From: Patiria pectinifera
Lineage: Eukaryota > Echinodermata > Asteroidea > Valvatida > Asterinidae
Reading direction: 5' to 3'
Length of the DNA: 64,000 nucleotides
Assembly: GCA_029964075.1 (NCBI GenBank)
Contig: CM057149.1
Span: 27,294,197 to 27,358,196 of the forward strand
The notes under the pieces were generated by a model, which was given only the letters and a program-made list of their open reading frames with translations, was not told where the DNA came from and ran no database searches. The translations under genes and the position numbers were made by a program. Below are positions 4,586 through 59,609 of the stretch, piece by piece (the first letter of the stretch is position 1; the number at the start of each line of letters is the position of its first letter).

Positions 4586-5151
4586 ATTATACAAATATTG
4601 AATGCTTCGAGTGGTGTAGTAAAACTAGCCTCCCGAGGTGATCCATGGACATTCTATTTTCCCAAGGCGAAGCCGAGGGAAAATAGAATGATCCATGGAT
4701 CACCGAGGGAGGCTAGTTTTACTTCACCACGAGATAAAGCATTCAATATTTGTTTTATAACACTTCACCCACAGATTCTGCTTGATTTTAATATTTTAAA
4801 TTATTTAAATCTGAACACAGCTGAAATAAACTTCAATTTCAATACAAAATTGGTGGAAAATGTATTTCTCTCTTAAAAACTACCCCTTTACGAAATGTTT
4901 GAACCCAAGTCTGCGGCGCGCTCTCTTTGGAATAATACGCGCTACGCACAACGCGCAACGCGCACACCAGCATGCATTTGCACACAAATACCGCGCCGTG
5001 GAAATAGTACTTTGGTTGCTAATGGTATAGTACTTTGGTTGCTATGCGCATAGTACTTTTGGCCGTGCACAGAAAGATAGCAAAATTAGAAAGTAACATG
5101 TGACTCTCTCTCGGCCAATCAAGACACAGAATCTGTGGGTGAGGTGTTATA
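4586..5151 (+). mobile_element. hairpin-plus-body element, unit A
   Basis: A hairpin with arms of about 75 bp (4591-4752) is followed by a 396-bp body (4756-5151) whose ends are inverted repeats: TATAACACTTCACCCACAGA on the left and TCTGTGGGTGAGGTGTTATA on the right. The apex of the hairpin is AAGGCGAAGCCGAGGG. The body carries ATTGG and CACATG motifs near its right end and GCGCAACGCGCAACGCGC-like repeats. It is inserted in the minisatellite arm of the foldback element and is directly followed by unit B. No coding capacity; the reading frame over the hairpin is an artefact. Confidence 0.8.
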
Positions 5152-5717
5152 ATATACAAATATTGAATGCTTCGAGTGGTATAGTAAAACTAGCCTCCCG
5201 AGGTGATCCATGGACATTCTATTTTCCCGAGGCGAAGCCGAGGGAAAATAGAATGCTCCATGGATCACCGAGGGAGACTAGTTTTACTTCACCACGAGAT
5301 AAAGCATTCAATATTTGTTTTATAACACTTCACCCACAGATTCTGCTTGGTTTTAAGATTTTAAATTATTTAAATCTGAACACAGTTGAAATAAACTTCA
5401 ATTTCAATACAAAATTGGTGGAAAATGTATTTCTGTCTTAAAAACTAACCCTTCACGAAATGTTTGAACCCAAGTCTGCGGCGCGCTCTCTTTGGAATAA
5501 TACGCGCTATGCACAACGCGCAACGCGCACACCAGCATGCATTTTGCACACAAATACCGCGCCGTGGAAATAGTACTTTGGTTGCTAATGGTATAGTACT
5601 TTGGTTGCTATGCGCATAGTACTTTTGGCCGTGCACAGAAAGATAGCAAAATTAGAAAGTAACATGTGACTCGCTCTCGGCCAATCAATACACAGAATCT
5701 GTGGGTGGGGTGTTATA
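5152..5717 (+). mobile_element. hairpin-plus-body element, unit B
   Basis: A second copy, head to tail with unit A and nearly identical to it: hairpin 5156-5318, body 5321-5717 with the same terminal repeats. The junction between A and B is simply the end of one body joined to the start of the next hairpin, so this is a tandem dimer, not two insertions with separate target duplications. The few differences (for example GATCC/GCTCC in the arm) suggest the dimer is young. Confidence 0.8.
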
Positions 5718-5725
5718 ATCGCGTC

Positions 5726-6197
5726 TTGCCCGACTGCGTCTGGCCGTACAGTACTATCGCAAGCTCTGCCGCACGCGCCGCACGTCCAAAAACACGAGGT
5801 CATACGTCACATACTGTTTATGCATATTCATGAGTTTGCGCGGGCGCGCCTGCATATTGCTTACATTACAGCGCGGCCGCCATTTTGAAATCGCATGGGG
5901 GATCGCATGGGGGACGATATATGTGGAATCTGATGACTGAAATTCGTCTTGTGGCCAGATGGATGAAAATATTTGAGACCAAACAACGTTTTTTCGAAAA
6001 TGTATGAGTTGTTCTACGACTACGAACCTTAACTTTGGAAATTTGTGTCCTGGATGAAAAGATAATCGCGATCGAAAGATGTAGCAAAATCGCTGCATTG
6101 GCGGCCAACAAAATTCAGTCTCTGTGGAAGCATCGGGCGTCTGGCCGTACTACAGAGCTTGCGATAGTACTGTACGGCCAGACGCAGTCGGGCTAAG
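5726..6197. mobile_element. MITE with 42-bp TIRs and short TSD (hAT-like)
   Basis: Terminal inverted repeats of about 42 bp, starting GCCCGACTGCGTCTGGCC and containing GTACAGTACTATCGCAAGC, bracket a 472-bp element. TCGCGTC flanks both sides (5719-5725 and 6198-6204), with a mismatching eighth base, consistent with a 7-8 bp target duplication as in hAT elements. The flanks can be joined into continuous minisatellite arm of the foldback element. No transposase. Confidence 0.7.
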
Positions 6198-6429
6198 TCG
6201 CGTCGTACCGTCGCCTCGTCGCATTTTAACTAAAATATCCAGTGTTTCGACAGTAGGTATGAGGCGCCACGTGTAAACAAGTTATTTAAAAAAATTATTG
6301 ATATATAATTCATTATTTATCATATAATTCAGTTTTTCGGCTTATTTAGGCTTATTCATGTATATACAATGCATTATTTACATATCATAAATTTCTTCTT
6401 GGACAATTATATATCATTCAAAAATACCT

Positions 6430-7022
6430 CAGACAGTTTAACTATTCCTATTGGTCGAGAGCCCGTCACGTGGCCGGTCTTAAACGGATGATAAAGACAT
6501 GGCTAGCTGGTCTTAAACACTTTCCGAGTGTCACAATAAAATGTGGACTCCTAAAAATCCAGTGCCTCTTATGGTTTCATTGGTTGAACTTTCACAATCC
6601 TCACGTATAGGCATGCGGAAAAACTACCAGGGAGTCAGAATTTTATAGTTCTAAATTCAAAACGCAACGCGCCAGGTGCGTTCTGCGCGACATCGCGCAG
6701 AACATGATACGCGCGCGTCAATCTCCATAAAAGGGTTGTTTACATCTTACTCGCCAGCTGAACACTCCATTATTTTGCAAGAGGGATGTTTCAAAAAGCA
6801 TAAAGTGAATTTGTTGAACAAAATCGGGATGTTTTGAACGAATTATAGGATTTTTTCTTACCGAAAAGGTATTTATGAATGGGAATAAATTTGTGCTCCG
6901 TCAGTATTTATCACTCTGTTTAAGACCACTTAGAGTCTGGGTGCTAATAATTACCCTCGCCTCCGGCTCGGGTAATTATCAGCACCAAGACTCTAAGTGG
7001 TCTTAAACAGAGTGATAAAAGC
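6430..7022 (-). mobile_element. hairpin-plus-body element, unit F (divergent)
   Basis: A hairpin with arms of about 50 bp at 6900-7022 has apex CTCGCCTCCGGCTCG. To its left is a body region in which ATTGGTCGAGAGC followed by TCACGTGG matches the end of the A/B body (ATTGGCCGAGAGC, TCACATG) on the opposite strand. Arm sequence is unrelated to the other hairpins. The outer border near 6430 is not certain because a clear terminal repeat is not visible there. Confidence 0.6.
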
Positions 7023-7251
7023 CTTCAGAGCACAGTTTGCATTATATGTAAATAAATTAAATTGAAGCACTAGAAATATCAATATGCCAGCTCATGGGCG
7101 TTATATGAGAACTTCAATTGTAGACTGTGCTCGTACTTTGATGCCCAAGACTATCTTGAACTGCTGACAATCTTGGCATAAACAAATATCTACTGCCAGG
7201 TAGCAACGTACCTGAGATCTGCATGGCAGACGGGAAAACCTGCCAAAAAGA

Positions 7252-8215
7252 GGGGCCAAATCCCGGTACATACCGTTCTTTCGTTTTACCGTTTTGGATT
7301 TCCTAAAAAACAAAAACAGTAAACGAACCATTGGCCGTTTTGTAGTTTTACAGTTTTGTCAAACGGTATTAAGAAAAATACGTCGGTTTAGTAAAATTCA
7401 TTACAGCATAACGATAAAAAGTTTTACAGTTTTTCACAAAGAACATTGAAAAACAGCAAAACAGTCAGTATTGAATACAGACTTTTTTTTCTATTTCAGT
7501 GTCATAGTTAACAGTCCGTGGTGCATTTTGTGGCGGTGGGCAAGGGGTGTGGAGGAGCACCATGCTGTGCACGAAGGAGTTTTACTCCCGTGAATATCGG
7601 CATAATTATTGCGTGGTGTAATTCCTGGCGTGCCGACCCTCGACACCCCCCCCCCCTCCAATCTACTGCGATTCAGTGTTTTATAGCTCCATGGTGGGGG
7701 CTTAAAGAGTTGCAAGCAAAAGTGGCCCTGGAAAATTCCAAGGAGGACATTTCACAATGGATACAGGAAGAAGTTGCAGGTATATGTTGAATGAAATTGG
7801 AGTTCGGCGCGTTCTTCAGTAGCCAATAATCGCAAATTCTGTCGTGAGAAGGACACAAATGTAAGAAGGGCAAATTCCCAGGCAGTGACTCGATCCCAAG
7901 GACACATTAACATTCCAAGGTGCATTGCTTAATTGCCAAACCTGAATCAAAAAAATTGTCGACAAGACTATTGATCGTTTTGTCATTGTGATGTTTTTGA
8001 AAAAGAACACTCTAAAAAATAAAGCAATTAACCGTTTATCGCTTTTGAAACTAAAAAAAAAATTAAAAAAGTAATTGTTTTTGTGTGACTTAATACGTTT
8101 GACCGTTACTGTAAAACAACAAAACGATCAGTGGTTCGTTTACTGCTTTTGTTTTTGGGGGAAATCTAAAACGGTAAAACGAAATAACGGTTTATAGGCC
8201 TACTGGGATTGGGCC
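7252..8215. mobile_element. long-TIR element, about 960 bp
   Basis: Terminal inverted repeats of about 100-150 bp: left starts GGGGCCAAATCCCGG, right (minus strand) starts GGCCCAATCCCAGTAGG, and both continue with TTTCGTTTTACCGTTTT and AGTAAACGAACCA. The inside (7500-7800) has a GC-rich patch and no recognisable gene. Only short reading frames occur. Confidence 0.65.
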
Positions 8216-8689
8216 AGAAACACAAAACTGGATCACGACACGAAGCAGAAATAATGGAAAAGGTGAAAGAAATGAAAAGCCTCGCATCGTACACCTTCGT
8301 TGACTTTTATTTTGAATGAAAAAAGTGCTAAATAGAATGCGCGGAAATGAAAACGAGAACGGGAATCTCTTGCAGATAGCCCTAAACCAAACCGACTGCT
8401 AAATTGAATGATCACTTAAACCGAATGACATAACTTCAATTTAGGATGCGTTAAACATGAAAATGTCAGGTCTTGAAAAGAATTTGAACGCCTGAAATCT
8501 AATACGAACCACGGGAATGACAGCAGGGTGTTACTTCGCATCAAATTGGCCACTATCAAGATGAATTTGCATGCTATTTTTGCGAAATTGGCCGGGAAAA
8601 CATATGAAATATATATAAATAATTTTGTCGCTTTGTGTTTTATTTGTCGCCTCATATGTCGAAACACTGGATATTTCAGTTAAAATGCG

Positions 8690-8985
8690 ACGAGGCGACG
8701 GTACGACGCAACTATGCGACGGCACGACGCGACTATGCGCCGTTGACGGCGTAAACGGCTATAGAACCAAACAATAAAAATGCGACGACGCGACTATGCG
8801 ACGGCACGATGCGACTATGCGACGGCACGACGCGACTATGCGACGGCCCTATACAAACATTACAAAACTATGCGACGGTACGACGCGACGGTACGACGCG
8901 ACTATGCGACGGCACGACGCGACTATGCGACGGCACGACGCGACTATGCGACGGCTCGACGCGACTGTGCGCTGTTGACGGCGTA
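8690..8985 (+). repeat. 21-bp minisatellite in the right foldback arm
   Basis: Around nine units of ACTATGCGACGGCACGACGCG, interrupted once by about 40 bp at 8745-8790 and once at 8845-8870. The flanking GTTGACGGCGTAAACGGCTA occurs twice (8742 and 8967), so the array itself was locally duplicated. The left foldback arm holds only two or three units. Confidence 0.85.
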
Positions 8986-9109
8986 AACGGCTACGGGCCC
9001 AAGCACCATTGCCCCACTTGCGACGCGGAAATGGCAGTAATGGAATTCCATACCCAGGTATGTGTGGGCAGATCTCCGCCATCGAAGAGTTCAGGAGTAC
9101 AGTGTTGAT

Positions 9110-10985
9110 CAGTTACGCCGTTGTTGCCTTCGTGGCGTCACCGTCTGGCTTCGGCATTTCGAAGGGGCGGCGGAACGGGTGGGGGGGGGGGGCACCAAAG
9201 TGCCCTCTTGCGGACATAAACAAGTGCCCCCTCGAGCATGTGCCCCTTCGCGATGAAGACAAAACTGGCCCTAACATTTTGGATAATTTTGTTTTCAGCA
9301 ATCATTTCCCCAAATGGTATAGAAAGTTCCGATATGACCGGTTCTGAAGCACGCCCCCTATTTTTGAATATCGTATCAGCCCCCCCCCCCCCTCCACCCA
9401 ATATTTGATTTTACGGAAGTCAAGTGTGCGGTGGCAAAACGTGTTGACATTTCAGCACAGATGTACCCCCTCCTCCCCCCCTAACAAAAAAGCTAGATAC
9501 GCTGCTGCACCGACGGAAGATGTCTTTTACTGAGCAAGTGCCGCTTTTTGGTGATCCCCCAGTTTGTCGCAGCTCGCCGCCTAGGATAGGACGGTCCATA
9601 TGGCCAGATTTTCCCATCGTTGATCGAAATGTTGGCGGCATTGAGGCGGCGTTTGATTACGTCCGTGTAGCACAGCTTCGGCCTGCAGCCTGGCCGTCTG
9701 GGTGATTTCGGGAGCTCGCCACGGAGAGGAGGATATTCGGCAGTCTGTGCTCCTCCCTGCGCACGACATGCCCTGTCCAGCAGAGCTGCATATCCAGCAA
9801 CGACATGCCCACTTGATGCAGCACTTCATCATTGGTACCCCGGCCCGCGCGATCCCGCATGAAATGTGGAGAATAGACCGGAGGTGGCGCTGCCGAATGG
9901 TCCGTAGGTTCTTGAGGTTGCAGGCAAGTAATCGGTCCGAAATTGCCTATACGCCGGCCAAATCACGAGTTGCATGCCCTCAAATTCTTCAATATTTGAG
10001 CATATTGTGGGTCATGAACTTGAGGGTTTGTAAGAACAAAATATGGGTGGAAGCCAAGCACAGCACTGTGAGCTTGTGTTTCAGAGAAATTTGGATGAAA
10101 TTGGGGCCCTAAAAGTGCTCTATTTCCATGGGCGTCGCCAGGATTCTTTTCTGGGGGGGGCATTTTTTCTTTGGGCCAAAAAATGCCTGTATTTCTAAAC
10201 ACATTCTCGATTTATCAGTTTTAGAGGGGGGCAGGGACATTTTGCCCCCCCCCATTAAATTTACACCAGTATGACTTCGCGCCTCTTTTTCTTTTCTTTC
10301 TCCCTCTTTTGTTTTTGTGTTGCTTCTCGGGGGGGGGGTCCCCCCCCCTCACGACGCCCATTTCTATTTTCCAATGGAGCATGCACCGTTTTTCAATTGC
10401 GATGGGCTTCAAGACTATTTTAAGGGGTGATCATCTTCGGATGGAAATTTCTCCTAAAATTCAGCAGATTACCAGAACAAAATTAAAAAGAAAATGGAAG
10501 ATGATGTAATAAGATTTATTTTGATGTGTGTTTCGTAAACCTTGGAGAGTTGTGAGTATTTTATTCGAATTGCTGAAGTGCATGGGGACATTTATCATTG
10601 GAGTTTATGGCAGTTTATTTTCTGGTCTGCAAGCTTGACTTTCCGTCTGTGGGTGCACACCGGTAAATAGGCCAAAACCCATCAGCTGAGCTCATGAATA
10701 AAGTTATACCTAAACGGTTCTATATTAGAGAGTTCTGAGAGCCAATAAATTCGGGAATTGAAGAGATATTGCATTGACCCCTCTGGCCCGGATTTGAGGC
10801 TTCAAATTCTGAGCATTTCGGATGAAATTGAGCTCGAAAGTGGCGCTATTTTGCCATGTTGTGGAGAGATCTTTTTTTTTTTTTTTAAATATGTCTACTC
10901 TTCCGCTTTGGGAAAAAAAGAACGGTCCTCTTCTTTGGATGAGTACATTGTTTATCTCGAAAAGTCAATGGTGCTATGGGTCAAC
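9110..10985. repeat. duplicated block, copy 1
   Basis: From about 9702 to 10985 this is almost identical to 14669-15989 (offset 4,967 bp); the parts to the left (9265-9700) align with lower identity to 12495-12575 plus 14214-14668. Differences are mainly in G or C run lengths. The shared 136-codon reading frame at 9702-10112 and 14669-15079 reflects this recent duplication and is not evidence of a gene. Confidence 0.85.
9590..9890 (-). pseudogene. non-LTR retrotransposon C-terminal fragment, copy 1
   Basis: On the minus strand the translation reads TNDEVLHQVGMSLLD followed by LCWTGHVVRREEHRLPN, which matches the region after the reverse transcriptase in RTE-like and related LINE proteins, normally LRW(A/T)GHVVRM.D.RLPK. 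Only about 60-90 residues remain, with frame breaks, and no upstream reverse transcriptase follows. It is a dead fragment inside the duplicated block. Clade assignment is by this motif alone. Confidence 0.6.
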
Positions 10986-11060
10986 CCACCAAAAAATGAA
11001 AAGGAAAATGAAAGATGACGTGTTGATCATAATTAATTTATACTGTCCTATACCCAGTTA
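10635..11060 (+). repeat. interspersed repeat family R1, copy 1
   Basis: Shares CTGAGCTCATGAATAAA, GTTATAC, AGAGTT(C/T)TGAGAGCCA, TCTGGCCCGGA and GGTCAACCCACCAAAAA with 15610-15989, 37150-37640 and, reversed, 17605-18070. No terminal inverted repeat or coding capacity is seen; the family type is unknown. The 191-codon frame that starts inside it is not a protein I recognise. Confidence 0.7.
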
Positions 11061-11904
11061 TTTCTGGTCTTTTACGTTTCTGTTAATTTTATTTTCTAGA
11101 ATGAGAACGCACTGTTATTGCTTGCCTTGTCGATATCATTTAAAAAGCTTTATTTTCTCACCAAAAAATGATGTCTGGGAACAGCGAACAGATTTTAATA
11201 GAGGGCCGAGGCTCGAATTTGAGATGTTGCGGAAAGACGATAGATGCAGTGTTGGCAAACCAATTTTAACAAAATGTATATATTTTTTTCTTTTCAAGAA
11301 AATCGAGACGGACGAAGGTGAGAATCTATCTTGTGTCCAGATACAAGGAGTAGAAATCTACGCGACTGCCTTTTTTAATGCACAATTGGAATGTTAATTG
11401 TATTTGCGTAATGATTCGCCTGGCACACGGTTGTTTCGCATGATGGCTGCGGCATACAATTTTCTACAAATCAAACACACTGGGCTCATTATTCCTCAAT
11501 AATGTGGACTAAGCCTATCTAAACCCAGTAAACTTCCCGGCGCGTTCCATCGCCTATAAAGACAACTTTTTTTTTTTAAAGAGAACTGGGGCCGAATAAA
11601 AAAAAAAACATGTTTAGCGTCCTGCCTTTTTGAAAAAAAAGGAAGGAGGAGACCCTTTTTTCGTTCGAAAATGGCCGCCCGACCCGGCTATTTTTCAAGA
11701 TGGCCGCCATTTTTTTTTTAAATGGCCGCCACTTGGACTCAGGAAATGACATACTAGCTTTATATTGGTTAGATACGACAGACAGAGAGGCCAAAACGAT
11801 GTAACTGTTTAAAATTGATCATTTTGGTGGTTTAAAAAAAGGAGGGGGCCTGCAAAAAGGAAGCGGGCGGGCACGCTACACATGTTTTTTTTTATACATA
11901 TATA
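11061..11904. other. non-coding stretch between R1 and the SINE
   Basis: Contains a poly-T tract near 11570, A-rich runs near 11600-11640 and a triplicated ATGGCCGCC motif (11670-11730). I see no gene, tRNA or terminal repeat. Confidence 0.4.
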
Positions 11905-12345
11905 TTTGGCCTAAGGTAACGAAATGGCCAAGTGGTTACGATTTGTCGTCCACACCAGCGGGGCCCCGGGTTCGAATCTCGCTGGTGTCTTTCTCGGTTT
12001 TTTTTTCGTACGCGTTAACTCATTAACTATAAGAGATTTAGTTTCCCGTGTTTAAAGTACCTTAGCTTAATCGGGAAGCTCTGCTGCTAGGACTGTCTGC
12101 GAAGTCCGGGTTGTGCATCTTCGTACAGTCGTTCAGGGCATGTGGTCCACTCGGAGGATCCTTGTTCCTCCCTTTTACATGTTGCCTGGACCTCCGGGGT
12201 AATGGATGGACAGGGATGGAGGTGTGTGGACCGGGACTGCCGAGATCCCAGGAGAGTCCCATAAGGGGTTGGCATGGGCTCATTATGATGGCTCCTCCGA
12301 CCCCTGAATGCTTGGTCAGCACATTAAACTTTTTGTGCTAGTTAG
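11905..12345 (+). mobile_element. tRNA-derived SINE copy 2, intact
   Basis: The head has both internal pol III promoter elements: an A box TGGCCAAGTGG at 11925-11935 and a B box GGTTCGAATCT at 11969-11979, in the order and spacing of a tRNA of the Leu/Ser type. A body of about 350 bp follows. There is no anticodon arm that would make it a working tRNA. It provides the empty site for the MITE in copy 1: here AGCTTAATCGGGAAG is continuous. Confidence 0.8.
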
Positions 12346-12575
12346 CCTATATTTTTTTTTTATTTTTTTTTTTAACCTGGGTTTAGTTCGAAATTCACAT
12401 TTGCTCGGCAAGGTTATGGTATAGGTTTCCCCGGCTATCTGAAAGATTTTTCATTTAAATTCAACAACTCTATTATTCAATTTTGTCCTCGGAAAAACTA
12501 ATGGCCCTAACATTTTGGATTTGTTGTCAGTAAACCATTTCCCAAAAATGATATATTTGGAAGTTCTAATATGAC

Positions 12576-14214
12576 ATTCTACGGACATGGCCCTCATTGA
12601 ACTTTCCGACAATATTACTAATGCCCTTACCAACAAATTGTGTGCTATTGGCGTTTTTACCGATCTCTCAAAAGCTTTTGACACTCTCGATCATTCTATT
12701 CTTCTTTCTAAACTCTATCACTATGGCATCAGGGGCATTCCACACCAATGGTTTGCCGACTATCTCTCTAACAGGTCCCAATATACTTCTATAATGAACT
12801 GTGATTCCGGTCGTCTTAACATCCAGCATGGTGTCCCCCAAGGCTCTATCCTTGGGCCCCTTCTTTTTCTGCTTTATATTAATGATCTTCACAATTCTTC
12901 ATCTCTTCTTTACTTCACTCTTTTCGCCGACGATACAACCATATTCTGTTCTAGCTCCGATGTTACTTCTTTGATAAACACTCTCAATTCTGAACTCAAG
13001 TTGATGTCTTCGTCGTTTAAAGCAAATACACTTTCTTTGAACCACGGTAAGACAAATTCTATTTTTCAGCAAGTTGGCTCGTCCTCATAATATCAACTTG
13101 CCTCAACTTGTTATTGATAATATTCCAATCAACAGGGTCTTTTCAGCAAAATTACTTGGTGTCATCGTCGATCAACACCTTTCCTGGACAAAACACATTT
13201 CTTCAATCACCAAAATCATCTCTCGAAACACCGGCGTTCATTCTAAACTTCGTTTCTTTCTTCCAGCCACCTCTCTGATCTTACTTTATAACACTCTTAT
13301 ACTCCCGTATCTAAATTACGGTAATATAATCTGGGCGCGTACCAGCAATAATAAACTGAACGCTTTGGCTGTCGCACAAAAAAAGGGCCATTCGCATTTG
13401 CACTCTATCGCATCCTCGGGACCACTGTGCACCTCTCTTTGCACATCTACGCACCCTCACTCTTACTGACATCAACAAATTGCACACTAGGATCTTTATG
13501 TACAAATTTACTAACAATCTTCTCCCTCGCACATCCTCCTCATACTTCACCTCAGTTCATGAAATTCATGATTATTCAACAAGATCCCGCAATAATCTGT
13601 TTGTTCCCTTCACTCGCACCTTGTATTCTATCAACACCCTTCGGTTTTACGGTCCTCGTTTATGGAATGCCATCCCCAGTGACATAAGAACGGAGTCGTC
13701 CGTGGGTCGATTTAAGATCTCTTATAAACGAGTCCTACTCTCCCAGTATGTAACATAGTTTTATTTCTCTCCTTTATATCTCTCCTTTATTTCTCTCCAT
13801 GTTTATTCACGTTTGAAGTCGTCATCGGTTTTTGAATTGATAATTTTTGTTCGTATTTTTTTGTTCTTTTTGCCGTTAGCTATCGTCGTATAAGTCTTTT
13901 GTCTTGTCTGTCTCGTCCGTGTGTTGTTATCATGTTGTTTTTCTGTTGTTATTGTTGTCTGTAAGGGCTGTTTCCTACAAGCCTCGGCTTACTTAAACAG
14001 CCCCATACTCCTTAGTTTCTTTTGTACATAAATCGAAATAAGTTTAACATTTCTTCATAGCGTATCTTACTGGTATTAATTTTCTCTTTTTTTGAGACAT
14101 ATTTATTGATTTTGTTATCTTGTTATTTACCAGATTTCTATTTTATTGATGGATGTATTCTCTAAAGGAGTATGGAATAAATGTTTTCTTGAATTGAATT
14201 AAATTGAATTGAAT
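12576..14214 (+). mobile_element. 5'-truncated CR1/Jockey-like LINE, frameshifted
   Basis: Encodes the second half of a reverse transcriptase and the C-terminal region in three frames: 12587-13090 (LSKAFDTLDHSILL, then GVPQGSILGPLLFLLY, then FADDTTIF at about 12923-12946), 13074-13469 (LGVIVDQHLSWTKHI) and 13480-13758 (RFYGPRLWNAIPSDI). At least two frameshifts kill it. A 450-bp 3' untranslated region ends in repeats of TTGAA, as in many Jockey-superfamily elements. The catalytic FADD is intact but the endonuclease and start of the RT are missing. TGAC occurs at both borders; copy 1 of the duplicated block shows the empty site. Confidence 0.85.
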
Positions 14215-14529
14215 TGACCGGTTTTGAAGTGCGCCCCTATTTTGGAAGATGGTACGAACCCCCCCCCCCTTCCCCCTCCCCCACCCACAATTTGATTATA
14301 CGGAGGCCAAGTGTCTGGTGACAAAACGTGTCGACATTTCAGTGCAGATGTAACCCCCCCCCCCCACACACTGAAAAAAAACCCAATGAAAATAAAAAAA
14401 AGAGAGGAATACGCTGCTGCACCGACGGAAGGTGCCTTTTACTGAGCAAGTGCCCCTTTTTAGTGATGCCCCCCCCCCCCCGTTTTAAAACCGTTCCGCC
14501 GCCGCTGTCCGCAGTTGCAGTTTTGACGC

Positions 14530-14870
14530 GATCTTTTGTCGCAGCTCGTTACCTGGACGGTCCATGGCCGGATTTTCCCAGTCGTTGATCAAAATGTTGG
14601 TGGTATTGAGGCGGCGTGTTTGATGACGTCCTTGTTGGGCAGCTTGGGCCTGCAGCCTGGCCGTCTGGGTGATTTCGGGAGCTCGCCACGGAGAGGAGGA
14701 TATTCGGCAGTCTGTGTTCCTCCCTGCGCACGACATGCCCTGTCCAGCAGAGCTGCATATCCAGCAACGACATGCCCACTTGATGCAGCACTTCATCATT
14801 GGTACCCCGGCCCGCGCGATCCCGCATGAAATGTGGAGAATAGACCGGAGGTGGCGCTGCCGAATGGTCC
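14530..14870 (-). pseudogene. non-LTR retrotransposon C-terminal fragment, copy 2
   Basis: The same dead LINE fragment as at 9590-9890, carried along by the duplication, reading TNDEVLHQVGMSLLD and LCWTGHVVRREEHRLPN on the minus strand. It runs somewhat further downstream (to about 14530) than copy 1 because copy 1 has lost sequence between 9560 and 9680. Confidence 0.6.
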
Positions 14871-15609
14871 GTAGGTTCTTGAGGTTGCAGGCAAGTAATC
14901 GGTCCGAAATTGCCTATACGCCGGCCAAATCACGAGTTGCATGCCCTCAAATTCTTCAATATTTGAGCATATTGTGGGTCATGAACTTGAGGGTTTGTAA
15001 GAACAAAATATGGGTGGAAGCCAAGCACAGCACTGTGAGCTTGTGTTTCAGAGAAATTTGGATGAAATTGGGGCCCTAAAAGTGCTCTATTTCCATGGGC
15101 GTCGCCAGGATTCTTTTCTGGGGGGGGGGGCATTTTTTCTTTGGGCCAAAAAATGCCTGTATTTCTAAACACATTCTCGATTTATCAGTTTTAGAGTGGG
15201 GCAGGGACATTTTGCCCCCCCATTAAATTTACACCAGTATGACTTCGCGCCTCTTTTTCTTTTCTTTCTCCCTCTTTTGTTTTTGTGTTGCTTCTCCGGG
15301 GGGGGGGGGGGGTCCCCCCCCCCCTCACGACGCCCATGTCTATTTTCCAATGGAGTATGCACCGTTTTTCAATTGCGATGGGCTTCAAGACTATTTTAAG
15401 GGGTGATCATCTTCGGATGGAAATTTCTCCTAAAATTCAGCAGATTACCAGAACAAAATTAAAAAGAAAATGGAAGATGATGTAATAAGATTTATTTTGA
15501 TGTGTGTTTCGTAAACCTTGGAGAGTTGTGAGTATTTTATTCGAATTGCTGAAGTGCATGGGGACATTTATCATTGGAGTTTATGGCAGTTTATTTTCTG
15601 GTCTGCAAG

Positions 15610-15989
15610 CTTGACTTTCCGTCTGTGGGTGCACACCGGTAAATAGGCCAAAACCCATCAGCTGAGCTCATGAATAAAGTTATACCTAAACGGTTCTATA
15701 TTAGAGAGTTCTGAGAGCCAATAAATTCGGGAATTGAAGAGATATTGCATTGACCCCTCTGGCCCGGATTTGAGGCTTCAAATTCTGAGCATTTCGGATG
15801 AAATCGAGCTCGAAAGTGGCGCTATTTTGCCATGTTGTGGAGAGATCTTTTTTTTTTTTTTTTTTAAATATGTCTACTCTTCCGCTTTGGGAAAAAAAGA
15901 ACGGTCCTCTTCTTTGGATGAGTACATTGTTTATCTCGAAAAGTCAATGGTGCTATGGGTCAACCCACCAAAAAATGAAAAGGAAAATG
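15610..15989 (+). repeat. repeat family R1, copy 2 (in duplicated block)
   Basis: Nearly identical to 10635-11005 through the segmental duplication, and truncated at 15989 where copy 1 continues with AAAGATGACGTG. Confidence 0.75.
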
Positions 15990-16140
15990 CAGCCTGGCTC
16001 GCATATCCAGCAACGACATGCCTGCTTGATGCAGCACTTCATCATTGGTACCCCGCGCGATCCTGCAGGAAATGATGAGAATAGACCGGAGGAACATGGC
16101 GCTACTGAATGATGGTCCGTAGGTTCTTGAGGTTGCAGGA
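15990..16140 (-). pseudogene. non-LTR retrotransposon C-terminal fragment, copy 3
   Basis: On the minus strand this reads ARGTNDEVLHQAGMSLLDM, related to but more diverged than the two copies above and retaining a few residues upstream (RTYGPSFSSAMFLRS). It abuts the truncated end of duplicated block 2 at 15989/15990. The word CAGCCTGGC at this junction also occurs inside block 2 at about 14651. Confidence 0.6.
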
Positions 16141-16269
16141 AGGGGCGGCGGAACGCATTTCAATGTGGGGGCAACATCAAAAAGTGGCACTTATCCAGAT
16201 AAAAAGGGGCACCTTCCGTCGGTGTGATAGTGAGAGCCCTTCGGCCTCTTGAACACAATTTTTTTTTGG

Positions 16270-16425
16270 GGGGGGGGGGCAAATACATGCGGTCCCCAAA
16301 AAGTGGGTCCAGAAATTCCTGGCGTGGGGTTCAGGGCCTATTAAGGGCTCCAGAAACAAATTCATGGATTTTTAGATGCTCTGTGGTGCGATCTGAGGCG
16401 ATTTCTGACCACTTTAATTAACCAA
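16270..16425 (+). repeat. GGGGTCC...TGAGGCGATT repeat, copy 1
   Basis: Shares GGCGTGGGGT, AAGGGC(C/T)CC and TGCTCTGTGGTGCGATCTG with 26570-26720 and 26925-27110. Short GC-rich interspersed repeat of unknown class. Confidence 0.6.
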
Positions 16426-16669
16426 TTTTTGTGAAAAGATTGTTGTGTATTAAGGTAGTGGCTGCCTTTTTTTGTCACGTATGACATAACTAAAGAAACA
16501 AAGCAATTTGGGTTGTGTTTTTTTCGGGGGGGGGGGGGGGCGAGGCATGGCCCCGTTGCCCCCCTCCCCCCTTTAGATCCGCCCTTGGGCCTTCAGTACA
16601 CCGCACGCCCTCCGTCTCCTGCCCCGGCAGTAACCTCTCTGGGTCCGCCCAGGAATTTGACTGCTCTAG

Positions 16670-17005
16670 TAATGTAGAGAGACCACTTTTCTATCGCCAG
16701 AGAGGCGCTTTTGATTGCCAGCTCAGTGACCATTTTATTCGCGAGAGGAGGAGCATTATCACTTTTGAAGGCCACTTTTTCACGATTTTAATATTGCGAG
16801 CGGCGCACTAATAAAATTGTGCTTTAGAGGGGCAGTATTCCATCTCGAGAAGTTATCGTGAGATGCACTATGTTTTTGATGGCCAGTTTTCCATCTCGAT
16901 AGGGGCACAATTTCATTATTGGAAGAGGTTTTTTGTGCTATCAAGGGGTAGTTTTCCATCTTAAGAAGGTGCACAATCTTGCTTATGCGAGAGGGGTACT
17001 TAGAC
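16670..17005. repeat. diverged tandem repeat, about 70-bp period
   Basis: Phrases like CAGTTTTCCATCTCGA followed by GGCACAATTTCATTAT and GCGAGAGG recur four or five times with many substitutions. Low copy number and strong divergence make the unit border uncertain. Confidence 0.45.
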
Positions 17006-17429
17006 CCCAAAAAAGTCTTCGGTTTCTGGTACGGAGCTTGCCCCAAAAGTGGTACGGCGACGCGGCTTCCCCCCCTACTTTTTTTTCTTTAAATGTCGGC
17101 TGATGTTGCAAATGATGACGCCTTTATCACCTTAAAACTCTCAAAAACAGCCTTCAGGGAGGAGCTTTAGGTGACCTCATTAAGGCCATAAGGCTTGAGA
17201 ATTCTGCACCCACTTACGATCTCGACCGACACGAACTTTCTTCGGGAAATTTGGATAGTCGAGACAAAAGTCAGAGAAAACGGTAACGTCAGACCATCGA
17301 CAATACAGCGACATTACAAAATGTAGTCTAGTCCCTTGCATAATGGAGGCCGCCATCCTGAGTCCGCCATTTTTTACTCGGGTTAAAGGTCACGTTTGCC
17401 GAAATCCGATATCACTTTCCTAACACCCA

Positions 17430-17515
17430 CTTGTAATTCCTAACCGATTCCTAACCAATTCCTAACCAATTCCTAACGCACCGTTAGGAAAGCGTTAGGA
17501 ATCGGTTAGGAATTG
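17430..17515. repeat. hairpin made of TCCTAAC repeats
   Basis: AATTCCTAACCGATTCCTAAC and its reverse complement are separated by further TCCTAAC copies, so the arms of about 21 bp enclose a loop made of the same motif. Confidence 0.6.
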
Positions 17516-17604
17516 TGTTCGGAATGTTCGGAATCGGTATCGAGCGTTAGGAAAGCTGGGTAGTCCGTCCGGCCGCGGGTGGGGCCAATCTAAAAAGCGT
17601 TTAC

Positions 17605-18070
17605 AGGTTTCAGGATGCATACCTGCAAATAAACTCCCATAGACACTTGTGCTAAATGCCCATACTTCAAAATTATTTTAAAAATACTCAAAACTCTCAC
17701 AGGTATTCAAGCTGCACAGAAAAATGATGATCAATGTGTCATCTTTCATTTTCTTTTCAATTTTTGGTGGGTTGACCATAGACTTTTCGAGGTGTTTTCA
17801 CGCAAAGAAGACGACCCCTATTTTCTCCAAAGCGGAAAAGTAGCCATCTTGAAAAACGATCCCTCCACAGCATGGCAAAATAGCGCCACTTTCGAGCCCA
17901 ATAGCATCCAAAATGCTCAGAATTGGAAGCCCCAAGTCCGGGCCAGAGGTTCATTACCATATCTCTTCAATTCCCCAATTTTACGGCGCTCAGAACTCTC
18001 TAATATAGAATATTTTGAGGGTATAACTTTTATTCATGAGCTTGGCGGATCGATTTACCGGTGTGCACCC
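17605..18070 (-). repeat. repeat family R1, copy 3
   Basis: Reverse-strand copy recognised by TTTTTGGTGGGTTGACC, TCCGGGCCAGAG, the GCTCAGAACTCT block and TTTTATTCATGAGCT in the order expected from the other copies read backwards. Confidence 0.65.
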
Positions 18071-18781
18071 TTCAGATACACTACCATCGCTTCCACACAC
18101 ACGTCTGTCTTCCACACACACAATCACAAAAATACAATATTTTGATCGTGTTCGTGTCTGAGTGTAAATCACAAATATTTGAAATAATTGAACTATCAAT
18201 AACGTTTGAAAAGAATTATTAAAACATTGCAGATAAATGTTGGAAACTTGTTTATTCAATACATTTATTTTAGTACATTTGACTTTTCAAAACATTATCA
18301 TTTTGATACTTACTTGTTTTAAAGATGTTATAGAAACGTACGTTTATAGCTATAAATAACATTTTTTATAAATATAAAAATGTTATACAAATGTGTTGAC
18401 GACATTATTAAAACATGCCCGATCTGTTCGAGTCCACCGAAGTATAAAAAATGTTATGAAAGCATTTCAGCGTGAAGTGCATTTGATGTTTGACCAACAT
18501 CATAATAATATCTTCACCGTGATAGCAGCTGTACGTCTAAATGATGTTTTTAAAACATGAACCAGTGAAAATCAATGAAGTGACGGCTATTGAACTCCAG
18601 AATAAATCAAACAAATCATTCAAACTTTGAACTTTTAAGGGAACCTCAAGAGAACCGGGTAGATAACTCAGATAAAAAAATACAACGTACTGCGTAGTTT
18701 TGTATTGCGAGCGTGGTGTGGTGACCCCACTCTATCCTGCAATGCGCTGCGGATAACATAGTGTGACGTCATTAGTACATA
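18071..18781. other. AT-rich non-coding stretch
   Basis: Mostly AT-rich with a short CACACA run at 18105-18125. I see no gene or terminal repeat. Confidence 0.35.
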
Positions 18782-19347
18782 ATATACAAATATTGAATGC
18801 TTCGAGTGGTGTAGTAAAACTAGCCTCCCGAGGTGATCCATGGACATTCTATTTTCCCGAGGCGAAGCCGAGGGAAAATAGAATGATCCATGGATCACCG
18901 AGGGAGGCTAGTTTTACTTCACCACGAGATAAAGCATTCAATATTTGTTTTATAACACTTCACCCACAGATTCTGCTTGATTTTAATATTTTAAATTATT
19001 TAAATCTGAACACAGCTGAAATAAACTTCAATTTCAATACAACATTGGTGGAAAATATATTTCTCTCTTAAAAACTACCCCTTTACAAAATGTTTGAACC
19101 CAAGTCTGCGGCGCGCTCTCTTTGGAATAATACGCGCTACGCACAACGCGCAACGCGCACACCAGCATGCATTTGCACACAAATACCGCGCCGTGGAAAT
19201 AGTACTTTGGTTGCTATGCGCATAGTACTTTGGTTGCTATGCGCATAGTACTTTTGGCCGTGCACAGAAAGATAGCAAAATTAGAAAGTAACATGTGACT
19301 CGCTCTCGGCCAATCAAGACACAGAATCTGTGGGTGAGGTGTTATAA
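18782..19347 (+). mobile_element. hairpin-plus-body element, unit C (solo)
   Basis: Full copy of the A/B family: hairpin 18786-18948 with apex GAGGCGAAGCCGAGGG, body 18951-19346 with the same TATAACACTTCACCC and GTGAGGTGTTATA ends. ATAAT occurs at both borders, but it is also close to the element's own ends, so the target duplication cannot be sized. As a monomer it shows that the dimer at 4586-5717 is not the obligate form. Confidence 0.8.
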
Positions 19348-19990
19348 TGGTTATTAGCCTCTCAGCCCCTGGATCACCACGGACGATGTCTCCATCTTGC
19401 ATTGCTGTCAGAATACGGCAGGGCGACCTTTCCATCTCGTACTAGGGGATCGTGGGGCTTGGATCGAGCGACATTTTCTGCACCTCTTCGGTCACGTCGG
19501 CCACGTCTTGGCTATTCTCGACTACGGGTTGGATGTCCAGTCTCTGTTGGAGCCCGTCTTGCACCCTGAACATTTGGACATAAACGACGGAACACGGATG
19601 TCAGCAAGACTATATTTTATTTAATTGCAATATTCAGTTGCTTTGTTATACGATCGCTTCCAAAGCCTTAGAGAGCTGGGACATGAGGGTTACAACAGAT
19701 TTCAGACGTCATTTTGTACGAAGAAACCAAGAAGTAATCATAAGATATTGAGGATTATTTGAGTGTAACGTACACCTATACCGGGTCCTTGTTTTTTGGT
19801 CCGTTGGCCAAATGACCAGAAAACAAACAAACTATTTCAAATGCAATGAGAAACACACTGCTTTATTAAGCCTCAACATTAGCAACTGCGTATTATGCTC
19901 ACTCACTGAACTCAGTCTTTCGTCTGCTCCCAGGCTAGACAACGTACGACAGACTCAACAAGTTGTACATACAGTAGTGCATAATCTTTT
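19348..19990. other. unassigned stretch
   Basis: A GC-richer segment at 19350-19610 and AT-rich DNA to its right. No reading frame here has a protein signature I recognise, and no terminal repeat is evident. Confidence 0.3.
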
Positions 19991-19999
19991 GCCCAACCC

Positions 20000-20690
20000 C
20001 GGCGTCTGCAGTCTTACGGTTGCCAAGGCTTTGCATCGTGGGTTGGTAAGGACAGTTAATCCCATTATGTAACTGGACGCCACAGACAGAGCAGTGAACA
20101 GATTGCACCCAGAAAAAAAACATCGCTTTTTCAACGTTCTGTTTTTTGTAAAAATATGCTCAGTGTGATTTAAATATTAAATTATAGCAGAACAAATCCT
20201 AAACTTAATGTCAGTGAAAGAAATCGTCTTTTTTGATGCAGAAACGTCAATACTGGTCACTGGTAAAGCTTACTTAAAAGTTGTGGGGCAAATCATTCTA
20301 AAAGTCCCCAAATCTATTAAGTTATCTCAATTTCCAGGAATCCCTACAAATTTTTATTTCACGAGTAATTAAAAACTAATATAATATAAGTATATTCCGA
20401 ATTTTAGCTTAATCTGTTGTTGCAAACGCTTGTGTTACACTTTCTACCATCATCAAGGTAAATTTCGACTCGGACCTTCGCTGAGCAAAACAATAGTGCG
20501 TTACCATGGCCGACTTAGCAGAAATTATCTGGCCGATTTGGCTGCGCATTATTGGCATATTCATTAGCGAAACTCCGCGTATCTTCGCGTGAATTTTGCT
20601 ATCGACCAATTGAAGCCCGCCAAAAGGGTTGACATTTATTAATGAATATATTAATGAATAACTTGTGAAGTTTATTTAAATGAAACTTTT
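20000..20690 (+). repeat. interspersed repeat family R2, copy 1
   Basis: Aligns over about 650 bp with 37990-38620: shared words include TGTCAGTGAAA, TCAATACTGGT, TATTTCACGAG, AAGTATATTCCGAATTT, TGTTGTTGCAAACGCTTGTG and GCATATTCATTAGCG. No coding capacity or terminal repeats are visible. Confidence 0.75.
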
Positions 20691-20738
20691 AACATTCTTA
20701 CTTTGTACTCTTAATATAGGTTTTCTTGGCTATTTTAA

Positions 20739-21111
20739 AGGGAATGTACAACATTTGCTTTTGCTGCAAATTTCATAAATACATGTATTTGGAGGATTAG
20801 TATTAGTTTTGGGTTCGGAGATGCTGAAAAATCCAAGAAAACTAACAATGTTCTTGTGGTCTGGCTCCCTGACCCCACTTAAGATGAAACGGAACAATCT
20901 ATAGACTATGGGAAACCGTAAAATCAGACAACAAGTCTAGCAGGCTTGTTATGTACCCATCCACTGGTGTGTAATAAATTGCAAAGAAAGTGTAAAAAAA
21001 CTATATATGACAAGTTAGGAGCAGTTTTCGAAAAAGCCGTTTTTTTCAACGCTGGTCGCCCGACCAGCGTTATAATTTGGTTATTTCGTGTGCAAATGTT
21101 GTATCTTCCCT
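20739..21111. mobile_element. TTAA-type MITE, copy 2
   Basis: A 373-bp copy with both TTAA target duplications intact (20735-20738 and 21112-21115) and 22-bp terminal inverted repeats, AGGGAATGTACAACATTTGC at the left and its complement at the right. The internal hairpin (about 21040-21075) has arms ACGCTGGTCG/CGACCAGCGT, a different sequence from copy 1 but at the same place. Confidence 0.85.
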
Positions 21112-21679
21112 TTAAAACGTTCAGCATTTGAATTCACCGTTTCTAATATTCAAATTCGTCCATCAACGTCGATTTAATGTACTTCCAATGTTTAATTTCA
21201 TTTTTTTCTCAGACGATTTGAAATCCACTTCAAGCAAATTCAAGCAATGATCACACTTTTCGTACCGGAGCATTCGATTTCGTCTCCTCTATGCCAAACC
21301 TTTTTCAAAAATCAAATTCGGCTCATTGATTGATATGAGACAACTTCGATCTCTGAATGCTGCCATTCAGCAACAGCTTAGAAGAATTTGATCTCTACTG
21401 ACGAATATTCTCGACCCGGTTGACTAAAGAGGGTGACCAAACTTTGAAATTGAATGGTAAATGACTAATTGGGTTTGTTAAAAGCGTGTGATTTTTTTCT
21501 CGGACGAAACTGAATGTTACAGTTGGTGAATTTGAATATTTTTTTTTTAAATGTACGTGTATGTTATTTAAACATGATGGTCAGGATTAGACGCATGAGG
21601 GCGCGCATTATGTACTGTAAGGACGTATGCGATATGCGCTGTGAGTGGATTTACTATCGGCACAGACCGAGCGCAACCC

Positions 21680-21775
21680 AGACTTGGCCAGGCCTACCTT
21701 CGGCCTCGTGGTATGTGGGACACAGACGCATTACATTATTCTGTGTTCCACTCGCGCTCGCGGGATAACTAATAT
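21680..21775 (+). repeat. GTGGGACACAGA hairpin repeat, copy 1
   Basis: Contains TTCGGCCTCGTGGTATGTG and a short stem GTGGGACACAGA/TCTGTGTTCCAC around ACGCATTACATTA. Repeated almost exactly at 22425-22509. The CGGCCTCGTG and CTCGC(G)CTCG pieces resemble the apex words of the hairpin-plus-body elements. Confidence 0.6.
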
Positions 21776-22424
21776 AGTAACTAATTAGTATACAGTGTTT
21801 ATACGTCGGTGAAGGGCAAAACCTAATGATTCACATTTCCCGACACGAAAAATCCACTTTTTGAAGACTTTACATTGTTTGAAAAAGCGTATTCTGGTTC
21901 GTGATACATCGATACACCGAATGAACAAGTCTGGTGGTCACAACTGGTTTTGAATCAATAAGATGCGAGCGCTGAAAAGTTTGTGTACAGCGCATAGAGC
22001 TATATTAAATTACTAGAGCGCTAACTCGATGTACAAAGTAATGCCTGATGGGCGCATCCATGTTTGTGCATAAACCTATGGAAAACTCGAAATTTTGTAC
22101 GGCTTTTGTACGGCTATTTGCATATATCTGCGTTTGTATTCCATACCGGTGTGTAATCGAAGCCGATACGCCCTAAACCGAAACGCACGATCAGCAAATG
22201 AGCCTTTCATTTTTTTTCAACGCAAACAGCGCAACGCGTGCGCGTCCCTCCGCTGCAGATGCTTTTTGCCGTGACGTTTTTTGAACCGTCATGACGCACT
22301 TAAGTTGTTTGTGTATATATTTTACTTGCGCGTTGCATTTAGAGTACACTTTTAAAATTCAATCCATCTGTTTTGATTGTGTTCTACAAACACGGACACA
22401 AATACTAAATGTCTGCACCCAGGA
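21776..22424. other. unassigned stretch between two hairpin repeats
   Basis: About 650 bp between the two 85-bp direct repeats. No gene, no obvious terminal inverted repeat. Confidence 0.3.
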
Positions 22425-22509
22425 CGGCTTCGCCTTCGGCCTCGTGGTATGTGGGACACAGACGCACTACATTATTCCGTGTTCCACTCGCTCGCAAGAT
22501 AACTTATAT
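22425..22509 (+). repeat. GTGGGACACAGA hairpin repeat, copy 2
   Basis: Second copy of the 21680-21775 repeat. It runs straight into the terminal repeat of the next element at 22510. Confidence 0.6.
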
Positions 22510-23176
22510 TATATAACCGACATACAGATCCTTGTCTTTTGATTGGTGAAACTCACATCACGTGGCATTCGTTATTGCTCCCAATCATGCCGCGGCTCAA
22601 AAAGTACTATCCGCCTATCCGGCTCGTTAGTGTGACGTCACCATGCGTACTTCACACGGTGTAGCATAGCACGAATGGAACCGGAAGTTAACGCACCTCG
22701 AACGTTTATCCAATGGGCGCTAGTTATCAGTGGTGCGCGTGCGTGTGTGACGTTTTTACTAACGAACCGGATGGGGAATGGGAAATACTATTCAACAGTA
22801 AGGATCATGACGCGGTATTTGTGTGCAAATGAATGCTAGTGTGCGCGTTCAGCGTTGCGCGTAGCGCGTTTTTGTTCCAAAGAGCCAGCGCTACAGCGTT
22901 GGGTTCAAACATTTTCGTGAAGGGGTGGTTTGGAAGAGAGAAATACATTTTCTGAGAAAGTTCAAATATATCAAATGACAAGGATCTAAAAAAATTATGT
23001 GAGTTATATAAAACAAATATTGAGTGGCTTTAAATTGTGAAATGGGAGGAATATTATCGCTCGGTAAAATCTGGACTTTTCCAGTTCACTCGGCTTCGCC
23101 TCGTGAAATGGAAAAGTCCAGATTTCACCTTGCGATAATATTCCTCCCATTCCACGCTGAGCCACTCAATATTTGT
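22510..23176 (-). mobile_element. hairpin-plus-body element, unit D
   Basis: Reverse orientation to A-C: body 22510-23010, then hairpin 23014-23176. Body ends are inverted repeats containing TATATAACC/TC, GATCCTTGTC and TTTGATTGG. The body is homologous to the A body (GTTCAAACATTTTCGTGA, GCAAATGAATGC and AAGTACTAT motifs). The hairpin has a completely different stem, with CCTCCCATTTCAC in place of the A stem, but the outer end CAATATTTGT and the apex CTCGGCTTCGCCTCG are kept. Confidence 0.75.
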
Positions 23177-23178
23177 AT

Positions 23179-23695
23179 ATTATACAACACCTGAATAAAT
23201 CCCCGTCATCTGATTGGTGGATCGTTGATCACATGTCATTGAATTATTCGTACCAACGCACGGCGCGCGCGCGGCGCGCAGCGCACAGTGCAATGGAAGT
23301 TCTATTGCACGGTGAATAGAACTTCCATTGCACGGTGTCACTGCTGCCGGTGGTGGTACTGGTTTAAATCGAGATAAATTGAATATGATTGTTCTCAACC
23401 TGTTGAACAGTTTGCATTAATATAAATATGATGAACCTGTCGAACGTTTAAACAGTCGTTAACCTTAATACATTGGCTATTAAAAGTCAACCAGTCAGAT
23501 GACAAGGATTTATTCAGGTGTTATATAAAACAAATAATGAATGTTTCACGTTCGTGCAATGGAAAGAATAATTTCATTCGGTGACAGATGAAATGTTCCA
23601 TTCCACTCGGCTTCGCCTCGTGGAATGGAAAATTTCATCTGTCACCTCATGAAATCATTCTTACCATTGAACTCACAAACATTGATTATTTGTAT
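23179..23695 (-). mobile_element. hairpin-plus-body element, unit E
   Basis: Directly adjacent to unit D in the same orientation: body 23179-23526 with inverted ends TACAACACCTGAATAAATCC and GGATTTATTCAGGTGTTATA, then hairpin 23530-23693 with apex ACTCGGCTTCGCCTCGT. Body sequence is again different except for the ends, the CTGATTGGTGG motif and a downstream TCACATG. A smaller hairpin GTGCAATGGAAGTTC lies inside the body at about 23290-23337. Confidence 0.75.
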
Positions 23696-23699
23696 ATTA

Positions 23700-30120: not shown

Positions 30121-30386
30121 TCATGGATCCCGTGGCCACAATCATGTTCCTTTCTGTATGTTATTATTTTCTGTTATTGATAAGTGTACCCCCTGTTGAT
30201 TTTTTTTCGACGAAGAGCTGGCTTTTCTTTGGAATTATTTCAACACTCTGTTTATGGGTTTTCTCTGCACGGGCAAATGTTTGTTTGCCTGCACCTTTGC
30301 CAAGATTGCGCTACAATAGAAACTATTCTGAAGGCTTACGTAGGGTACAGCGTACAGTCAGTATTCAGATTAACAACACACTTTGA
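30121..30386 (+). CDS. short hydrophobic reading frame, doubtful
   Basis: From the ATG at 30123, a frame of about 87 codons has two hydrophobic stretches (around FLSVCYYFLLLISVPP and WLFFGIISTLCLWVF) that could be membrane segments, then a basic tail. It ends inside the first unit of the tandem array. I recognise no family, there is no splice or promoter evidence, and the foldback context argues for chance. Listed only because it is the best frame in this interior. Confidence 0.15.
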
Positions 30387-59580: not shown

Positions 59581-59609
59581 TCCCTTCTTTTCAGACTTTT
59601 TCTCCATAG

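Follow-up and report, generated by a model that had tools for sequence, protein, structure and literature searches.

Six long hairpins, named A to F, lie in the stretch of the Patiria pectinifera genome analysed here (GCA_029964075.1, contig CM057149.1, positions 27,294,197 to 27,358,196 of the forward strand; 64,000 nucleotides, hereafter the window), and they belong to a large, orderly superfamily of short mobile elements, in which the shape of the hairpin is kept while its letters turn over. The elements are short, probably non-autonomous DNA transposons of one superfamily. The explanation that accounts best for the whole, to which we assign a probability of roughly 0.55, is that such elements would be mobilised by an enzyme acting on a folded single strand, and that their hairpin arms would be rewritten by copying from arm to arm.

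An earlier interpretation made from the letters alone (the sequence-only reading) had described the six hairpins as units with a shared outer end, midway pair and apex, joined by stems that are unrelated between A/B/C, D, E and F. All six hairpins are present and fold as described, each as a single long stem (predicted fold; also with RNA parameters). The hairpin is real; as a unit, however, it is only the left end of a longer element, and the elements in the window measure 517-671 bp. A and B, both of family 1, follow each other head to tail, and so do E (family 3) and D (family 2) on the minus strand.

4588..5152, plus strand: element A, family 1, 565 bp, TATACAAATA...GTTATAA; hairpin 4588-4755, then body with inverted repeats
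5153..5718, plus strand: element B, family 1, 566 bp, head-to-tail with A; hairpin 5153-5320
6415..7040, minus strand: element F, family F, degraded 5' end; hairpin about 6885-7040; minus-strand apex CGAGCCGGAGGCGAG
18783..19347, plus strand: element C, family 1, 565 bp; hairpin 18783-18950
22509..23179, minus strand: element D, family 2; hairpin 23011-23179; internal insert about 22619-22770
23180..23696, minus strand: element E, family 3, 517 bp, head-to-tail with D; hairpin 23528-23696

Copy number and plan of the elements

The 613.5 Mb of the genome were scanned for copies of the window's elements with exact patterns, using the reversed patterns as controls. There are 1651 occurrences of the apex 15-mer of the A-E type, CGAGGCGAAGCCGAG (reversed control 1), 806 of the F apex (control 0), and 1735 of a pattern that fixes only the ends and leaves stem and apex free, TATACAAATA-N130..160-TATTTGTTTTA (control 0). 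Since these counts far exceed those of the controls, we could rule out that the shared words are common by chance, which the sequence-only reading had itself named as a possible objection. Both the shared apex and the shared outer end ACAAATA therefore hold, with the restriction that unit A carries a mutated apex (CAAGGCGAAGCCGAG) and that the F family, as judged from 21 F-apex loci, begins with TAAGGGAATAAATGTG instead; the window copy F is without the first bases of that end. No description of the superfamily was found in titles and the beginnings of abstracts, and the apex 15-mer appeared in no paper; repeat libraries and most subscription papers were outside this search, which is thus no proof that the superfamily is undescribed.

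Families were sorted from the first 100 listed apex places of the 1651, of which 98 lie within the fetched loci L009-L102 and two in L008. The 98 places comprise 33 copies of family 1 (A, B, C), 28 of family 2 (D), 16 of family 3 (E), 11 of family 4 and 6 of family 5, and 4 others, three of which (L038, L061, L069) look F-like by inspection, the remaining one (L030) standing alone. The ends-only search added family 7 (three copies among the fetched loci) and family 8 (one copy among them). The 21 F-apex sites, located on 20 fetched stretches, represent one F family, and 3 of them are rearranged on the right arm.

According to the family consensuses, an element begins with a terminal hairpin of about 145-175 nt, and inverted repeats flank the body that comes after it, as exemplified by TATAACACTTCACCC...GGGTGAGGTGTTATA in the consensus of family 1. 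Hairpins measure 167-173 nt in families 1-4 (167 nt in each of the consensuses of families 1-3), 146 nt in one family-5 copy and 168 nt in one F copy. Elements of families 1-4 start with TATACAAATA and finish with TATAA or GTAA. In all four elements that were folded whole (predicted, RNA parameters), the last base of the element is paired at the outer foot of the hairpin, so that both ends meet, and the inverted repeats of the body contribute 23-39 paired bases. Two variants were also seen: in the near-identical L039 and L040, the inner portion of a family-1 hairpin stands alone within other sequence, without the usual ends, and L114, the sole family-8 copy, has an apparent second palindrome in its body.

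Tandem dimers were considered as a general mode and rejected. Few neighbours were found for the 76 apex-selected copies of families 1-4 whose left end is clear: two head-to-tail on the right, one head-to-tail on the left and one head-to-head on the left, with one copy having two. A further 12 copies without a clear left end had been set aside, and 16 of the 76 had no recognised right end. Best-scoring matches over-represent dimers.

Mismatch nodes and arm-to-arm copying

The midway pair AGGTGA/TCACCGA of the sequence-only reading is present and turned out to be just one case of a general node, namely a tandem GA opposite GA (CGAG/CGAG or TGAG/CGAA), which families 1 and 3 also have at the apex and close to the base. 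Read antiparallel, a node consists of tandem G.A and A.G pairs, which we take to be sheared. The apex loop is GAA in the A-E type and GGA in F, both of the GNA form. The arrangement is best seen in element C:

18803..18806, plus strand: base node, left CGAG; opposite CGAG 18925-18928
18829..18832, plus strand: mid node, left CGAG; opposite CGAG 18899-18902; tandem G.A/A.G
18858..18872, plus strand: apex CGAG-GCGAAGC-CGAG; tandem G.A and GAA triloop

GCGAAGC is a well-known hairpin. The related hairpin CGCGAAGCG is called extraordinarily stable in PMC10527192.

The consensus of family 1 has CGAG/CGAG at apex, mid-stem and base, that of family 3 TGAG/CGAA at mid-stem and base. Family 4 has CGAG/CGAG at mid-stem and GAG/CGAAAT at the base, family 5 CGAG/CCGAG, and L030 CGAG/CGAG. 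In family 2 the mid node reads CAAG/CGAG, most likely a CGAG altered at its CpG, and the base node is degenerate. In F we saw no mid node; a base node GGAG/CGAC can be read in the consensus, where the predicted fold drew the region differently. Counts were based on copies of at least 85% identity (49/53, 25/31, 17/17 and 10/11 in families 1-4), in which the apex is intact by selection. The consensus mid node is found in 32/49 copies of family 1, 16/25 of family 2 (CGAG/CGAG in a further 2/25), 10/17 of family 3 and 8/10 of family 4, and the consensus base node in 42/49 copies of family 1 and 15/17 of family 3. In a mixed sample of 131 end-defined hairpins, 99 have a forward apex with GCGAAGC, 17 a forward but mutated one and 6 an apex that is wholly or partly inverted, and in 9 the apex was not recognised; L114 and L147 have a decayed apex, and the mid node of L147 is fully paired. 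By inspection, families 1-5, 7 and F all have their GA side on the strand in which the hairpin precedes the body in the 5' to 3' direction.

The claim that both arms are rewritten together was borne out by three lines of evidence, the first being covariation. We compared D-like with E-like stems over 71 pairs in 19 copies of 167 nt with intact apex (11 of family 2 and 8 of family 3; one family-2 copy was omitted). In this set 96.4% of the cells are paired, compared to 87.3% in shuffles and 38-45% when the arms are slid. Altered on both sides are 19 of the 71 pairs, or 143 cells; this number of cells exceeds every shuffle, and the number of pairs is reached by 80 of 500 shuffles. Further pair types are rarer than in shuffles.

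Secondly, the mid node, which is fully paired in 9 of 105 scorable copies of families 1-3, shows changes on either arm. Left mid nodes in which both bases are mutated and face an intact GA were found at 20 places in family 1 genome-wide (TC 15, TT 3, CC 1, AG 1). TC is the exact complement of the other arm, and its share of 15/20 corresponds to a binomial probability of 4e-11 against 1 in 9, or of 1e-8 if distinct sequences are counted (12/17), both under a null that ignores mutational bias. Double mutants of the right arm occur at 17 places in the same family (TC 13, AT 2, TT 2), and 3 of the 13 look like copies of one event. For both arms together, 28 of the 37 double-mutant mid nodes are thus the exact complement of the opposite arm.

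Thirdly, the exact apex is inverted in 25 copies (control 0), which by inspection of their first 80 letters were assigned to family 1 (10), family 2 (5), family 3 (7, one of them divergent) and family 4 (3). The exchanged stretch varies, since these copies differ in which nodes or arm letters were swapped: right-arm letters extend past the apex into the left arm in 4 of the 5 copies of family 2, TC stands at the left mid node in 4 copies of family 1, and right-arm letters occupy the left base node in at least 3 copies of family 3. An altered apex coincides with a corrected node in 3/10 copies of families 1-3 as against 6/95 among the others, a weak association (Fisher p 0.04).

Template switching between the arms of inverted repeats leads to arm homogenisation and spacer inversion (PMC8604942, PMC8794818), and both signatures, multi-base changes matching the complement of the other arm and inversion of the spacer, are found here. 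Template switching or conversion inside the palindrome, which the sequence-only reading had listed among its candidate routes, is therefore the process that fits best. Unlike in the reported cases, the events can be read in many copies of one mobile hairpin, where they fall on a mismatch node of defined position. Irrespective of the enzyme involved, these copies document how pairing is maintained in long hairpins. Copying from one arm to the other is registered by the node in either direction and in more than one family, whereby the origin of compensatory stem changes becomes directly countable in one genome. Correction erases nodes, yet the family consensuses keep them, with GA on the same strand; the simplest reading of this is that mobile copies need the nodes, as the parallel with bacterial REP sequences described below would also suggest.

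Insertion sites and the putative mobilising enzyme

Right ends were recognised in 113 of the 131 end-defined hairpins, all of families 1-4, and after removal of duplicates and short flanks 111 copies were profiled. Their left flank reads A75, T76/C18, A90, G45/T34/A18, then TATACAAATA; to the right of TTATAA, T follows in 65% and then A in 53%. We describe the target as YAN^T, with insertion 3' of YAN and usually before T, and by inspection the F family and family 5 (three copies) are likewise inserted after YAN. For empty sites, the joined flanks of 125 constructs were compared with the fetched loci, and four were seen among the matches listed. L090 gave TTTTATAG^TTC, located in F-type bodies; the L002 dimer gave TTGAATAG^TATTTCCC, located in family-2 bodies, with many empty relatives; L050 gave ACAGACAG^TCAAAA (one relative) and L062 AACAA^TATTTGC (relatives diverged at the junction). 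No target-site duplication was found in these four cases, and a scan for duplications of 2-8 bp at various offsets gave no consistent offset, the best excess being 15 versus 7.7 for a 2-mer.

These sites bear on the idea that the elements are ordinary miniature inverted-repeat transposable elements of a cut-and-paste (DDE) transposase, which would duplicate 2 bp of TA and for which the hairpin would be a passenger beside the left inverted repeat. It would explain the inverted repeats in the four folded elements and the TA before TACAAATA in 111/111 profiled copies, a figure that is partly due to selection, as 40 of the fetched loci had been chosen with TATACAAATA. However, the empty site of L090 lacks TA and hence offers nothing to duplicate, T and A are too infrequent in the right flank, and the repeats are not at both very ends of the element, as they border the body with the hairpin outside the left one. 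A duplication of TA as target is ruled out by the empty sites, and we consider this explanation, largely refuted already, improbable.

For the folded single-strand explanation, we envisage the following course. On one strand, tandem G.A nodes interrupt the terminal hairpin, which is of nearly any Watson-Crick sequence and ends in a GNA triloop, and the inverted repeats of the body pair and bring the two ends of the element together, as seen from the sequence and predicted folding. A strand-specific enzyme, probably of the HUH kind, would recognise the ends, the apex and the nodes on folded single-stranded DNA rather than the stem letters; because of this, the stem letters would be free to drift if both arms change together. 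The element inserts 3' of YAN, usually before T, leaving the target unduplicated, as the empty sites show. Template switching or mismatch correction copies arm onto arm and sometimes flips the apex, as the mutation spectrum shows, with a polymerase presumably carrying out this step. Copies in which correction has paired the nodes fully would arise as by-products and would probably serve poorly as substrates. The suspicion of the sequence-only reading that the mobilising enzyme depends on the structure is supported only indirectly, by the recurrence of the non-canonical nodes and of their strand across families.

The HUH transposases of IS200/IS605 and REP sequences are the most likely model for such an enzyme. 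In E. coli, TnpA-REP, an HUH enzyme, needs a conserved double mismatch in the middle of the REP stem, correction of which harms activity, and it uses one strand (PMC8266576). The elements resemble REP/REPIN sequences and TnpA-REP, relatives of IS200/IS605, which are many-copy, presumably non-autonomous hairpins with a conserved mid-stem double mismatch (in E. coli) and one special strand (PMC8266576); the absence of a target-site duplication and the insertion 3' of a short word, seen in the empty sites and the flank profile, also resemble the IS200/IS605 or REP type. They differ from REP/REPIN in that the hairpins are about 145-175 nt long, have up to three nodes and adjoin a body with inverted repeats in a 613-Mb genome, in which no enzyme was found. 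Integron attC sites offer a partial likeness, though they differ in belonging to bacterial cassettes and in being served by a tyrosine recombinase. They are recognised as a folded single strand via unpaired bases (PMC8266576).

Should the enzyme read the folded strand, eukaryotes would possess, apart from Helitrons and Replitrons, a further type of element that corresponds to the hairpins of REP and IS200/IS605. Replitrons are described as eukaryotic elements with an HUH enzyme, no inverted repeats, direct terminal repeats of 5-11 bp and target duplications of 2-8 bp (PMC10741241), and such duplications were not seen here. More tentatively, and with less than even odds in our view, this could be an undescribed eukaryotic system of single-strand transposition, in which the enzyme would read shape (a GNA-capped hairpin with tandem G.A nodes) instead of sequence, and arm-to-arm copying would alter the stem letters with mobility kept, perhaps evading sequence-based silencing.

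Several observations weigh against the folded single-strand explanation. No enzyme with these ends and no autonomous partner were found, hairpins having been listed in full around the Helitron_like_N match on contig C1. To our knowledge, HUH elements do not usually have long inverted repeats in their bodies. Nor do all families follow one node plan, given the degenerate base node of family 2 and the F family without a mid node. The DNA folding energies of the two strands differ by only 0.4 kcal/mol; since they are nearly equal, the strand argument rests on conservation. Within families most changes strike one arm and pairing is lost, which speaks against a continuous process, and paired changes are slightly above expectation in families 1 and 3 (5 and 4 observed; 0.75 and 1.24 expected) and not above it in families 2 and 4 (0 observed; 1.12 and 0.08 expected). 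Inheritance within subfamilies may account for part of the corrected nodes. Finally, the REP analogy is not strict, given that the mismatch was only moderately selected in SELEX (systematic evolution of ligands by exponential enrichment) and that another group of REPs are perfect palindromes (PMC8266576).

Another possibility is that the elements are Helitrons or Helentrons of a non-autonomous kind, in which the hairpin would form the terminator end. They share with Helitrons the absence of a target-site duplication, a hairpin near one end and a high copy number (PMC4067079). The genome contains 148 Helitron_like_N matches, many of them in long open frames; in single cases, an inverted-apex copy of the family-3 type (C20:29031207) lies about 5.8 kb from a Helitron Rep domain (C20:29037081), and on contig C2 a distance of about 16 kb separates an F apex from a further Rep domain. 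Canonical Helitrons, however, have 5' TC, 3' CTRR and a palindrome of 16-20 nt lying about 11 bp before the end, their insertion site being between A and T (PMC4067079), whereas elements of families 1-4 start with TATACAAATA and end with TATAA or GTAA; the target here is YAN^T, and a far longer hairpin with conserved nodes lies at the very end. Helentrons prefer TT and have subterminal repeats (PMC4067079); we see no TT insertion preference. As to the subterminal inverted repeats with a 3' stem loop, inverted repeats and a hairpin do exist here, but in another arrangement. Moreover, the only Helitron_like_N match on contig C1 (2,724,636), which was fully listed, has none of the three exact hairpin types within 200 kb, an observation that also counts against the folded single-strand explanation. 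A Helitron or Helentron origin is in our view about as improbable as that of cut-and-paste elements.

In the third alternative, to which we give slightly less weight still, selection would act on an RNA hairpin (its stability, protein binding or small RNA) rather than on single-stranded DNA. The hairpins fold with RNA parameters too and could, being long, supply small-RNA pathways, but the target preference and the meeting of the element ends point to mobile DNA.

Separately, about 86 of the 148 Helitron_like_N matches (counted by eye), more than half, are on contig C7, and several matches, there and elsewhere, lie in open frames of more than 3000 codons.

Descent of the stems and other features of the window

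In an ungapped comparison in register, the stems of families 2 and 3 are 65% identical (0/2000 shuffles as high), with p 0.24 for families 1-2, 0.32 for 1-3 and 0.0015 for 1-4. This comparison suggested unrelated stems for most pairs, and gapped tests found more likeness. For the latter, apex, nodes and ends were removed and 15 family pairs were compared with shuffles; the p-values are slightly favourable, as bases beside the nodes were kept, one family-2 segment was of a typed variant and families 7 and 8 were single copies. Families 1-2, 1-3, 1-4, 2-3, 4-7 and 7-8 are alike beyond shuffles (p 0-0.003), families 1-7, 3-7 and 2-7 weakly so (p 0.011-0.030), and six of the 15 pairs were not below 0.05 (1-8, 2-4, 2-8, 3-4, 3-8, 4-8). 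As this gapped likeness links families pairwise, we conclude that the stems form a chain of diverged relatives. The stems of A/B/C, D and E are consequently neither unrelated nor newly captured, as had been proposed; they are diverged homologues, the very finding that the sequence-only reading had named as contradicting it. The hairpins of F and of family 5 show no match to other families beyond the apex stretch, and capture may apply to these two.

A body block is common to families 1 and 2 (74% over 192 bp; 83-85% over 166-167 bp between family 2 and the window's family-1 copies) and has no match with family 3, and family 2 matches family 3 across the hairpin and the right end. Modules thus seem to have been exchanged between families, judging from these alignments. 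As a general origin, the capture of new stems from elsewhere, made palindromic by foldback copying, would suit the F and family-5 stems and the body block that families 1 and 2 share though their stems are far apart, but we regard it as very unlikely in view of the likeness of six pairs of masked stems and the common consensus length of the hairpins in families 1-3.

Other repeats are also present in the window. A separate inverted-repeat element directly follows B (5728-6193), with arms of 48 nt that are 94% complementary and 370 nt apart. Reverse transcriptase (RVT_1) pieces at 12575-13090 and 34126-35901 are remnants of retrotransposons. Tandem arrays lie at 1681-2091, 30352-30867 and 59212-59581, with units of about 21, 104 and 56 bp, respectively, and the unit of the first array resembles a small palindrome.

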